Below are positions 3,546 to 9,880 of a stretch of DNA of 64,000 nt, one piece after another. This DNA comes from Yoonia sp. (lineage in GTDB: Bacteria; Pseudomonadota; Alphaproteobacteria; Rhodobacterales; Rhodobacteraceae). How positions within the stretch are numbered: the stretch's first letter is position 1; each line of letters begins with the position of its first letter. A model generated the notes under the pieces. It searched no databases. It had not been told where the DNA came from and saw only the letters and a program-made list of their open reading frames with translations. A program made the translations under genes and the position numbers. The DNA is taken from positions 124,001 through 188,000 of the forward strand of contig JAQXEG010000034.1 in NCBI GenBank assembly GCA_029250945.1, given 5' to 3'.

Positions 3546-3576
3546 TGTGATCACAGTATTTTGGGGTGTGATCACA
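3546..3576. promoter_or_regulatory. paired TGTGATCACA operator-like boxes upstream of sucC
   Basis: Two perfect copies of the palindrome TGTGATCACA occupy 3546-3555 and 3567-3576, exactly 21 bp apart (two helical turns). They sit between sucC (minus) and a small plus-strand gene, about 100 bp from the sucC start. The same pair with the same 21-bp spacing occurs upstream of sdhC at 9850-9880. The spacing suggests a regulator binding cooperatively on one DNA face. The regulator cannot be named from the sequence; a CRP/FNR-type site would need a wider gap between half-sites. Confidence 0.65.
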
Positions 3577-3656
3577 AAATTGGCGCGCACTGATAGAATC
3601 AGCGATAACCACAGGATTTCGGCATGCTTTCGGACGCCGCGCCGAAGGATTAGACT

Positions 3657-3944
3657 TTGCTCATGACACAATCATTGCCACAGCGCTGCCAGTTTCAATG
3701 GAATTCGTTTGACCCCATCGGGGTTTCAGACTGGGCGGATGATTGGGACCCGCATCGTGATGACGAATATCAGACCTATGTCGGAACCACTGTGAAGCTT
3801 CTCAAATCAGGGGCTGACCAACATAAGCTGAAGGCGTTTGTGCGCAATTGCGTTTACGTCAGCATGGGGTGTCGGCAGGCCGACGATATGGATGCCCGAA
3901 TTGATGCATTTGTGACCGCCCTTTTGTCATTGCGGCGATCCTGA
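3657..3944 (+). CDS. hypothetical protein, 95 residues
   Basis: A small acidic, tryptophan-rich protein with SFDPIGVSDWADDWDPHR near its N-terminus and a helical C-terminal half. I do not recognise a named domain. A TTG start at 3657 has a well-spaced AAGGA seven bases upstream, while the ATG at 3663 is 13 bases from it, so the TTG is preferred (M-L-M-T-Q-S). It is divergent from sucC and convergent with mdh. The TGTGATCACA pair lies about 80-110 bp upstream, so it could share regulation with sucC. Confidence 0.6.
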   Translation: MLMTQSLPQRCQFQWNSFDPIGVSDWADDWDPHRDDEYQTYVGTTVKLLKSGADQHKLKAFVRNCVYVSMGCRQADDMDARIDAFVTALLSLRRS

Positions 3945-3949
3945 AACGC

Positions 3950-3976
3950 AAAAGGCGCCCCCGAAGGGACGCCTTT
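3950..3976. terminator. bidirectional stem-loop terminator between small gene and mdh
   Basis: AAAGGCG and CGCCTTT arms with extra C/G pairs and a CGAA loop form a strong hairpin, flanked by A-rich DNA on the left and T-rich DNA on the right. It lies between two convergent genes and can end both transcripts. Confidence 0.8.
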
Positions 3977-3997
3977 CAATTCTAATATCGCTTGGGC

Positions 3998-4966
3998 TTA
4001 GGCCAGCGACGGATCGATTTCTTTACACGCAGACACGAGGCCTTTGACGGCGTCGACAGATTTGTCGAACATGGCTTGCTCATCTTTGTTCATCTTGATC
4101 TCGACGACGCGCTCGATGCCGCCTTTGCCGATCACGGTTGGAACGCCAACGTAGAACCCATCAAGGCCGTAGGCACCGTCAACGTGGGCCGCGCATGGCA
4201 GCAGACGCTTTTGGTCTTTCAGATATGCTTCGGCCATCTCGATACCGGATGTGGCTGGCGCATAGAATGCGGAACCTGTTTTCAACAGGCCAACGATCTC
4301 GGCACCGCCATCGCGGGTGCGCTGTACGATCGCGTCCAGCTTCTCTTGTGTGGTCCAGCCCATGTCGACCAGATCGGGCAACGGGATGCCTGCAACAGTG
4401 GAATACCGTGTCAGTGGAACCATCGTGTCGCCGTGGCCGCCCAGAACAAATGCTGTGACGTCGCGCATGGACACATCGAATTCTTCGGCAAGGAAGTGAC
4501 GGAAACGCGCAGAGTCCAAAACACCCGCCATGCCGCAAACCATGTGCTGTGGAAGGCCGGAAAATTCGCGCAGCGCCCAAACCATCGCGTCCAGCGGGTT
4601 GGTGATGCAGATGACAAATGCGTTTGGCGCATGGGCTGCGATGCCCTCGCCCACGGATTTCATGACCTTCAGGTTGATGCCCAGCAGATCGTCGCGGGAC
4701 ATGCCCGGCTTGCGCGCCACACCGGCGGTCACGATGCAAACGTCCGCATCGGCAATCTCAGCGTAGTCATTGGTGCCTTTCAGCGCAACGTCGATGCCAG
4801 CAACAGGGCCCGCTTCGGCGATATCAAGCGCCTTGCCGCGGCCAATGTCGCCACCTTCGGCGATGTCGAACATGACGATGTCGCCAAGTTCCTTGATCGC
4901 AGCAAGGTGGGCAAGCGTGCCGCCGATTTGGCCAGCGCCTATAAGGGCAATTTTAGGTCGTGCCAT
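3998..4966 (-). CDS. mdh: malate dehydrogenase (NAD)
   Basis: The protein has 322 residues starting [16 protein letters not shown], the usual start for alphaproteobacterial lactate-type malate dehydrogenases. The NAD-binding GAGQIG lies at residues 10-15, the mobile-loop arginines are in [12 protein letters not shown], and the catalytic histidine is in GGHGDTMVP. It oxidises malate to oxaloacetate in the TCA cycle and handles malate from the EMC/malyl-CoA route. An AGGAG precedes the ATG by 9 bases. Upstream, at 5032-5065, are a TGC-rich element shared with EMC genes and a separate perfect palindrome. Confidence 0.97.
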
Positions 4967-7738: not shown

Positions 7739-7743
7739 TCCCT

Positions 7744-7947
7744 ATGAAAGTTTACCGTTTCATCACCAATGACGACACGTCCGAATTCTGCCACCGCGTG
7801 ACCGAGGCGCTATCAAAAGGCTGGTCGCTGCACGGCGATCCGCAATATGCCTTTGATCAGGCCAATGGCGTGATGCGCTGCGGCCAAGCCGTGACCAAGG
7901 ACGCCGATGTGGAATACTCCCGCGATATGAAGCTGGGGGCGGTCTAA
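7744..7947 (+). CDS. DUF1737 domain protein
   Basis: A 67-residue protein, MKVYRFITNDDTSEFCHRV followed by ALSKGWSLHGDPQYAFD, which is the DUF1737 pattern of one small alpha/beta domain. No function is established. The gene ends directly before the mch start, so it is co-transcribed with mcl2 and mch. Confidence 0.85.
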   Translation: MKVYRFITNDDTSEFCHRVTEALSKGWSLHGDPQYAFDQANGVMRCGQAVTKDADVEYSRDMKLGAV

Positions 7948-8973
7948 ATGTCCAAGACGAATGCGGGGCGGTTTTTTGAGGATTATGCCGTCGGCGACGT
8001 GATCAAACACGCGGTCCCGCGCACAATCAAAATGGGGGAGGGGGCGCTCTATCATGCGCTCTATCCCGCCCGCCACGCGTTGCATTCGTCGGATATGTTT
8101 GCCCAATCCTGCGGTCTGCCGTTCAGCCCGCTGGATGACCTGATCACATTCCACACTGTATTTGGCAAAACCGTGCCGGATGTGTCGCTGAATGCGGTGG
8201 CCAACCTTGGCTATGCGCAAGGGCGCTGGCTGACCCCGTTGTGGCCGGGTGATACGATCACGGCCACGTCCGAAGTGATCGGCGTCAAGCAAAACTCTAA
8301 CGGCAAAACCGGTATTGTTTGGGTGTGCACCACGGGTCAAAACCAGCATGGTGAGGTTTTGATGGAATACGTGCGCTGGGTTATGGTGCGCCGCCGCGCC
8401 GAAGGGCCCGCGCCCGATCCTGTCGTGCCAGAACTTTCAGATGTGGTTGATCCCGCCGATCTGGTCATCCCCGAGGGGCTCGATTTCAGTAACTACGATT
8501 TTGATCTTGCGGGTGAGCCGCACCGCTGGGGTGATTACACCGTGGGCGAGGTGATCGACCACGTCGATGGCGTCACCGTGGAAGAGGCGGAACATATGCT
8601 CGCCACCCGCCTGTGGCAGAACACGGCAAAGGTGCATTTTGATGCAACACACCGCGCGGATGGCAAACGATTGATTTACGGTGGGCACGTGATTTCGATG
8701 GCCCGCGCACTGTCGTTTAACGGTTTGGCAAATGCCCAGATGATCGTGGCGTTGAACGGCGGTGCCCATGCGAATCCTTGTTTCGCACGCGAAACAATTC
8801 GCGCATGGTCAGAGGTGCTGGATAAGGCTGAAACCGATGCGCCCGGTGTGGGTGCAATCCGGCTGCGGCTTGTGGCGACGACGGGTGGGGCGGGCGAATT
8901 GCGCGGCGACGATGGCAAATATCTGCCAGAGGTTTTGCTTGATCTCGACTACTGGGCGCTGATGCCGATCTAA
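7948..8973 (+). CDS. mch: mesaconyl-CoA hydratase (beta-methylmalyl-CoA dehydratase)
   Basis: The product has 341 residues, close to the about 343 of the R. sphaeroides enzyme. Two MaoC-like hotdog halves are visible: the first begins GRFFEDYAVGDVIKH, the second around HRWGDYTVGEVIDH near residue 190. It interconverts mesaconyl-C1-CoA and beta-methylmalyl-CoA in the ethylmalonyl-CoA pathway used to grow on acetate and other C2 units. Its neighbours mcl2, sdh, ecm and ccr belong to the same or the adjoining pathway. Confidence 0.93.
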   Translation: MSKTNAGRFFEDYAVGDVIKHAVPRTIKMGEGALYHALYPARHALHSSDMFAQSCGLPFSPLDDLITFHTVFGKTVPDVSLNAVANLGYAQGRWLTPLWPGDTITATSEVIGVKQNSNGKTGIVWVCTTGQNQHGEVLMEYVRWVMVRRRAEGPAPDPVVPELSDVVDPADLVIPEGLDFSNYDFDLAGEPHRWGDYTVGEVIDHVDGVTVEEAEHMLATRLWQNTAKVHFDATHRADGKRLIYGGHVISMARALSFNGLANAQMIVALNGGAHANPCFARETIRAWSEVLDKAETDAPGVGAIRLRLVATTGGAGELRGDDGKYLPEVLLDLDYWALMPI

Positions 8974-8982
8974 GGATATAAC

Positions 8983-9854
8983 CATGAAATATCTTGCCGC
9001 CACATTGGCGCTGACCGCGACAACCGCAACCGCCCGAGACGCCGAGGAATACATCCGCGACAACACCCTCGCGATCTTTTATCACGAGCTGGGCCATGCT
9101 TTTATCACGAGCTGGGCCATGCGCTGATCGACATCCTCAAGCTGCCGATTTTCGGGTAGGAGGAAGACGCGGCAGACGTCGCATCTGTAATGCTGTTGCA
9201 CCTGCTTTATGAAGAGGAAACAGCGCAAGCGATGGTGCAATCCACCGTAGATGTGTTTCTGGCCGAAGCTGATGAAGCCGACGGCGATATCGCGTTCTGG
9301 GACACCCACGGTGCCAGCGAACAACGATACTATAACACAATCTGCATCTTTGCCGGTGGCAACTGGGACGTCCGCGTAGAAATGGACGCATTGATGGGCC
9401 TGCCAGAGGATCGTGCAAACTTGTGCGAGGTCGAATTTGAACAAGCCGATTACAGCTGGGGCAACGTGCTGGCCAACATCGCGATCGACATCCCCGGCAC
9501 CACTTTTGTACTGGGCGAGGCGGACATGGCTGCCTCTATTACGGTTAATACCATTCGTGAGAAGTTGACCGCGCTCAACAGTGATTTCGGCCTTGAAAAC
9601 CCTTTGGTCGTGAATGTCGTCAGCTGCGGGGAGCCCAACGCGCCGCCGCCGTGGATGCCGTACAGACGCGCCCGCACCCCTTGATCGCAAGTGCGCCGCC
9701 CGACGGTTACCTGATCGCGTTTCTGGACGCTTTGGGCGATGTGCCCGCTCGCCTGCCCCCGCAGGAATTTGATTTCGCAGCGATTGCACAGGAATTGCAG
9801 CCCGATGCGGACAAGCAGGGCCGCAAGTTGATGCAACTCTACGAAGTTATGTGA
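8983..9854 (+). pseudogene. broken DUF4344-type secreted metallopeptidase
   Basis: An AAGGA-preceded ATG opens a signal peptide (MKYLAATLALTATTATA) and reaches YHELGHA, a zinc-metallopeptidase HExxH motif typical of DUF4344 proteins. A 23-bp tandem duplication at 9076-9121 then shifts the frame. In the restored frame, LIDILKLPIFG is followed by an in-frame TAG at 9157-9159 where EEDAADVA should follow, then an open stretch reads to about 9640. A further shift there leads to a second open frame ending at 9854. At least three lesions make this gene non-functional. It sits between mch and the sdh promoter on the same strand. Confidence 0.85.
9076..9121 (+). repeat. 23-bp tandem duplication inside the DUF4344 pseudogene
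   Basis: Two exact copies of a 23-bp unit (9076-9098 and 9099-9121) lie head to tail, each encoding the HELGH zinc-binding motif in one frame. Because 23 is not a multiple of three, the second copy is out of frame. Perfect identity suggests a recent event. Confidence 0.95.
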
Positions 9855-9880
9855 TCACATAATTTTCGACTGTGATCACA
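9850..9880. promoter_or_regulatory. paired TGTGATCACA operator-like boxes upstream of sdhC
   Basis: Perfect TGTGATCACA palindromes occur at 9850-9859 and 9871-9880, again 21 bp apart, 122-152 bp before sdhC. The arrangement duplicates the one upstream of sucC. The first box overlaps the last codons of the broken DUF4344 gene. Confidence 0.65.

Follow-up and report, generated by a model that had tools for sequence, protein, structure and literature searches.

Two operons that serve the succinate steps of the tricarboxylic acid (TCA) cycle carry the same paired element in Yoonia sp., a member of the Rhodobacteraceae (assembly GCA_029250945.1). The element consists of two copies of the 10-bp palindrome TGTGATCACA placed 21 bp apart, and it lies upstream of sucC and of sdhC within a 64,000-nucleotide stretch of contig JAQXEG010000034.1 (positions 124,001 to 188,000), called the window here. 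The boxes are very probably operators of the GntR-type activator AkgR, each pair at sucC and sdhC being bound cooperatively by two dimers that activate the operon, and a single box at the regulator gene serving self-regulation. The regulatory feature is real and well explained. The motif core, an activator binding it and the link between regulator and targets in Rhodobacter sphaeroides were known before; the present analysis adds the strict geometry of the sites, its symmetry, the self-site, and the recurrence of this pitch next to a related regulator outside the family.

A preliminary description, made from the letters alone, had placed two perfect TGTGATCACA-N11-TGTGATCACA pairs at 3546-3576 and 9850-9880, and both are present with zero mismatches. 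The sucC gene is on the minus strand, so its proximal box is the one at 3546-3555. The start codons are 98 bp (sucC) and 121 bp (sdhC) from the end of the proximal box. The description had seen no other such pair in the window, and only these two are matched there even at up to three mismatches (0 matches in 100 shuffles of the window). The genome-wide search that it had proposed, carried out at the same threshold on the source genome (2,531,337 bp in 48 contigs, 95% complete), also returns these two pairs only, with 0 matches to the reversed-pattern control. The 11-bp spacers, which had been called unconserved, do differ in sequence between the sucC and sdhC pairs, yet ATTTT is common to both.

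The 10-mer TGTGATCACA itself has five copies in the genome, the four window boxes and one outside the window, all within 17 kb at the TCA cluster. About 3.3 copies are expected per genome under an order-1 model of the window; it is the placement of the copies that is striking, not their count. The shorter core GTGATCAC occurs 107 times in the genome and is therefore not diagnostic alone. Avoidance of the site elsewhere was considered and dropped: with about 3.3 copies expected in total, the lack of any 10-mer away from the TCA cluster is a shortfall too small to support it. Counts in 60 hand-chosen genomes speak against it, with 1-35 copies (median 5) in 41 regulator-positive genomes and 0-5 (median 1) in 19 regulator-negative ones.

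A regulator of this kind is known from R. sphaeroides, where the GntR protein RSP_0981, which we take to be AkgR, presumably activates TCA genes directly. AkgR was reportedly described by Imam, Noguera and Donohue in mBio in 2015. In print, GTGATCAC is a site of the activator AkgR (PMC6365646), and the predicted targets of RSP_0981 are RSP_0967-6 (succinyl-CoA synthetase), RSP_0974-6 (succinate dehydrogenase) and RSP_0965-62 (2-oxoglutarate dehydrogenase) (PMC4344238). All four window boxes contain this core, and the sucC and sdh targets are among those predicted for RSP_0981. By RSP numbers RSP_0981 is on the sdh side of the R. sphaeroides cluster, whereas the regulator gene described here lies beyond lpd. 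Paired, phased AkgR sites are not mentioned in the available portions of PMC6365646 and PMC4344238, and they are not claimed here as unreported; a literature text search with TGTGATCACA gave no paper on the subject by title.

The fifth copy of the 10-mer ends 8 bp short of the start codon of a GntR/FCD regulator gene, which has a YgjP-like peptidase gene on one side and lpd on the other. The protein has the Pfam domains PF00392 (GntR) and PF07729 (FCD), both above cut-offs, which places it in the GntR/FCD subfamily, and it is the single match to itself in the genome at E 1e-20. Its gene is absent from the 8-kb loci around the pairs and is found about 10 kb away from the sucC pair in the source genome. 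A box in this position recurs among 30 regulator loci taken as best matches, own genome included, a set biased to close relatives: it is exact in 15/30, within one mismatch in 18/30, and its core is found in 17/30, against 0.08/30 loci with a box at one mismatch in shuffled sequence. The end of the box is 8-20 bp from the aligned regulator start in 16 of the 18 loci, and 30 and 50 bp from it in the other two.

The pair is kept widely in the family. Searching genome_contigs for exact N11 pairs gives at least 118 stretches with at least 121 pairs, and among those listed 95 are before sucC, 23 before sdhC and 3, unclassed, beside mdh. Most record titles are of Rhodobacterales and a few are not; exact pairs also occur in records titled Nocardioides marinus, Maritalea mobilis and Robiginitomaculum sp. 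(L089, L030 and L033), possibly mislabelled or reclassified. In 295 family genomes, the exact pair with a spacer of 0-30 bp is found in 188, and among the 75 pairs listed from 62 genomes a hand count gives 69 N11, 5 N10 and 1 N21. The N11 pair at up to three mismatches is found in 258/295, mostly twice per genome, and its reversed-pattern control, counted by hand, in 3/295.

A test independent of the motif used the sdhC and sucC loci of 30 regulator-positive genomes picked by index number, with spacing left free between 11 and 45 bp. The pair, which the preliminary description had expected before both genes in relatives, is indeed kept within two mismatches in 29/30 sdhC and 29/30 sucC regions, and the best pair in 1,200 shuffles has four mismatches. 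The spacing is 21 bp in 29/29 sucC pairs and 27/29 sdhC pairs and 20 bp in 2/29 sdhC pairs, that is, 21 bp in 56/58 overall and 20 bp in 2/58. In G012, the one sdhC region without such a pair, a single exact box is present; in G071, the one such sucC region, the locus was retrieved through a 35%-identity match, and fragments of the true gene lie at contig ends. The distance from pair to start codon is tight at sucC (97-114 bp, one 130) and looser at sdhC (111-178 bp).

The 58 pairs are degenerate in a symmetric way. The flank base facing outward, T in the distal box and A in the proximal one, is retained in 105/116 cases, and the base facing inward in 80/116 (Fisher p 7e-5, a statistic that ignores ancestry). 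At sucC nearly all relaxation is in the proximal box, exact in 18/29 against 28/29 for the distal one. A/T makes up 78% of the middle five spacer positions at sucC and 56% of those at sdhC. A third box, mostly degenerate, is seen one 21-bp step further in a few genomes (G197:C6:255056-255107, G177:C4:99450-99501, L308 in G135 and L310 in G191).

Pair and regulator occur together. Best E-values for the regulator in the 295 genomes fall into two groups separated by a gap from 5.4e-60 to 6.4e-76, giving 265 positive and 30 negative genomes; a genome is pair-negative when both scans (exact pair with spacer 0-30, and N11 at up to three mismatches) find none. Both are present in 260 genomes and both absent in 22, with regulator only in 5 and pair only in 8, as is fitting for an AkgR regulon. 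Of the five genomes with the regulator only, G009 retains a degraded pair at sdhC (3 mismatches, 20 bp), G286 has one box, and no sdhC was retrieved from G147 and G166 (71-73% complete). Among the pair-only genomes, four (G019, G033, G114 and G273) have regulator homologues of 37-46% identity, and in G033 the homologue and the pair share a contig at a distance of about 8 kb. Completeness is 77% in G096 and G264, G209 matches the pattern at a place other than sdhC, and G256 has weak partial regulator matches only. Where both are lacking and sdhC could be located (18 genomes), the best pair carries 7-9 mismatches; G157 is the exception (5, at 32 bp).

That one regulator controls both operons, as the preliminary description had suggested, is thus supported by this co-occurrence, by the conserved position and phase of the pair, and by the fifth box at the regulator gene. 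Of the protein classes it had named (GntR, LysR and CRP), GntR fits.

Several observations weigh against AkgR as the regulator of these pairs, or against its activating role. The co-occurrence p of 4.7e-22 ignores shared ancestry. G201 has the regulator and no pair at sdhC, and G114 and G256 (L223 and L216) have good sdhC pairs and no close regulator (best E 5.0e-34 and 4.6e-9), a sign either of gaps in the assembly or of a second regulator that uses these sites. Twelve of the 30 regulator loci have no box within one mismatch. A sigma-70-like promoter scan gives no match at sdhC; around sucC it gives two weak ones, both outside the interval between pair and gene. Likewise, 122 sucC upstream regions stacked on the pair show no -35/-10 at constant distance, so that no conserved promoter was found to fix an activating position. 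Orthology of the regulator to RSP_0981 is an assumption of the AkgR assignment.

The mechanism proposed for AkgR is as follows. Each 10-bp palindrome would be occupied by a single dimer. The pairs at sucC and sdhC would place two dimers on the same side of the helix, 21 bp or two turns apart, where they would bind cooperatively and switch on the operon downstream, in a class I or a class II arrangement. The single box at the regulator start codon would give self-regulation, probably negative. Pairs 98 and 121 bp before start codons are compatible with activation, and a single box hugging the regulator start codon is compatible with repression. We infer cooperativity from the 21-bp phase and the symmetric degeneracy; the assignment of one dimer to a box and of two dimers on one face to a pair is made by analogy with Atu1419 and the double sites of the LacI family.

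Atu1419 of Agrobacterium fabrum is, like the regulator here, an FCD member of the GntR superfamily, and its dimer reads a 10-bp palindrome (PMC7797058); FCD regulators are described there as using one half-site per monomer. It differs in being a repressor of another pathway, in its palindrome ATGTATACAT, and in the tetramer suggested to form a DNA loop joining sites 190 bp apart (PMC7797058). Members of the LacI family such as RafR and ScrR have paired palindromes 21-22 bp apart, read as obligatory cooperative binding (PMC4052901), but they belong to another protein family and their palindromes are longer. The GntR-family protein BusR has a bipartite motif with 22 bp spacing and uses a tetrameric coiled coil and an RCK_C domain (PMC8517857); no such domain is present in the regulator here, for which Pfam shows GntR and FCD only. 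The best PDB match by sequence is E. coli McbR (4p9f, E 1.3e-20), of the VanR group of the GntR superfamily, which differs in the ATATAT motif reported for K-12 McbR, in its ligand dihydrofolate and in its genes (PMC13343897). Both McbR and Atu1419 are reported to respond to folates (PMC13343897, PMC7797058), and a folate-type effector for AkgR may be taken from them as a lead. GapR/CceR (RSP_1663), a LacI-family regulator of central carbon metabolism, is predicted to act on Rhodobacteraceae TCA genes including mdh and sdh (PMC4052901, PMC4344238). Its motif differs from the boxes here, and in the window no match to its reported consensus precedes mdh, sdhC or sucC.

The boxes could be AkgR sites on which dimers bind independently, the second box raising occupancy and the 21-bp phase being inherited or set by contacts with RNA polymerase. 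Cooperativity is deduced here from sequence geometry, a box seems able to work singly to judge by the one at the regulator gene, and Atu1419 binds a single 10-bp palindrome (PMC7797058). Against independent binding stand the spacing of 20-21 bp in 58/58 pairs despite drifting spacer sequence, and the relaxation of inner-facing relative to outer-facing bases (80 vs 105 of 116), and we consider it rather unlikely. Binding by another GntR-type regulator, perhaps a paralogue, with the gene beside the fifth box as merely one more target, is improbable. In many family genomes the protein does have at least two matches at E 1e-20, and the pair exists without a close match in G114 and G256; the source genome, however, has a single match, the pair co-occurs with a close orthologue, and the box before the regulator gene recurs in 18/30 loci.

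In the CRP consensus, TGTGA and TCACA half-sites are 6 bp apart. The half-site letters of the boxes resemble that consensus, which would make them CRP/FNR-type sites; here the half-sites abut with no gap, and R. sphaeroides is not predicted to hold CRP-analogous proteins (PMC4344238), which leaves this explanation very improbable. Chance matches, or a functionless dispersed repeat, would accord with a 10-mer count near expectation (5 vs about 3.3). All five copies are at TCA genes and one regulator gene, and the pair is kept across the family while the spacer drifts, and so an origin by chance or as a repeat is of practically negligible likelihood.

The AkgR assignment can be extended to a composite operator at the main targets, T-GTGATCAC-R-N11-Y-GTGATCAC-A, a consensus drawn from the 58 pairs of relatives. 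This operator would be rigid and filled by two dimers as one symmetric complex, the inner half-sites may relax through dimer contact, and the self-site would have lower affinity. The 20/21-bp pitch would then be a property of a wider GntR/FCD clade and not of TCA promoters. A draw of 385 genomes across the class, 5 in the family and 380 outside, bears on the last point. The pair at up to two mismatches is found in 1/380 outside-family genomes (G440), and the reversed-pattern control in 1/385, so that the outside-family count by itself is meaningless. What carries weight is its place: the G440 pair sits between a TonB-receptor plug-domain gene and a GntR/FCD gene whose protein is 30% identical to the regulator here, and the site (L196, G440:C189, 971-1021) is made up of three GTGATCAC-type boxes at steps of 20 and 21 bp, which have 2, 1 and 0 mismatches. 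The pitch in G440 is that found here, in a different regulon and in another family of the class. We hold the composite operator as a tentative proposal with slightly less than an even chance, lowered a little because the outside-family control count equals the match count.

The TCA steps flanking succinate are probably wired to one regulator in most family genomes examined, and the site geometry is constant enough to mark the regulon in other genomes. If two dimers do fill each pair, AkgR would be a GntR/FCD activator with a strict two-turn operator, whereas the FCD protein described in complex with DNA acts as a repressor and reads single palindromes (PMC7797058). Cooperativity and effector sensing would then be accessible with short DNA fragments.

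Table 1. Boxes, regulator gene and operon genes (window positions unless a contig is named).
Feature	Position	Strand	Remark
Box, sucC-proximal, palindrome TGTGATCACA	3546..3555		exact match
Box, sucC-distal	3567..3576		exact match; exact in 28/29 sucC pairs of relatives
Box, sdhC-distal	9850..9859		exact match
Box, sdhC-proximal	9871..9880		exact match
Fifth box	G000:C27:116996-117005		exact 10-mer, ends 8 bp before regulator ATG
GntR/FCD regulator gene, 216 residues	G000:C27:117014-117661	+	~10 kb from sucC pair, outside window
sucC, first gene of operon	2254..3447	-	ATP-grasp_2 + Ligase_CoA domains
sucD	1118..1999	-	named by eye from ORF translation
sucA, sucB, lpd	after sucD, outside window	-	named by eye
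sdhC	10002..10385	+	Sdh_cyt domain
sdhD	10398..10769	+	Sdh_cyt domain
sdhA	10783..12594	+	named by eye from translation (ORF list)
sdhB	12806..13585	+	named by eye from translation (ORF list)

Since sucC, sucD, sucA, sucB and lpd follow one another on the same strand, the sucC pair may also serve the last three (Table 1). Divergent control of the open reading frame (ORF) at 3657-3944 was considered and dropped: this ORF has no Pfam match, and around 98 sucC pairs of the genome_contigs loci no homologue of it turns up within 700 bp. Just 5' of sdhC, the gene of a DUF4344 putative metallopeptidase (9082-9854) is broken in this assembly, with a stop at about 9157-9159 and a frame change near 9660-9690, and is either a pseudogene or an assembly error; its final stop codon (9852-9854) falls within the distal sdhC box. 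The window also encodes a LuxR-type protein (21784-22350) with autoinducer-binding and GerE domains.

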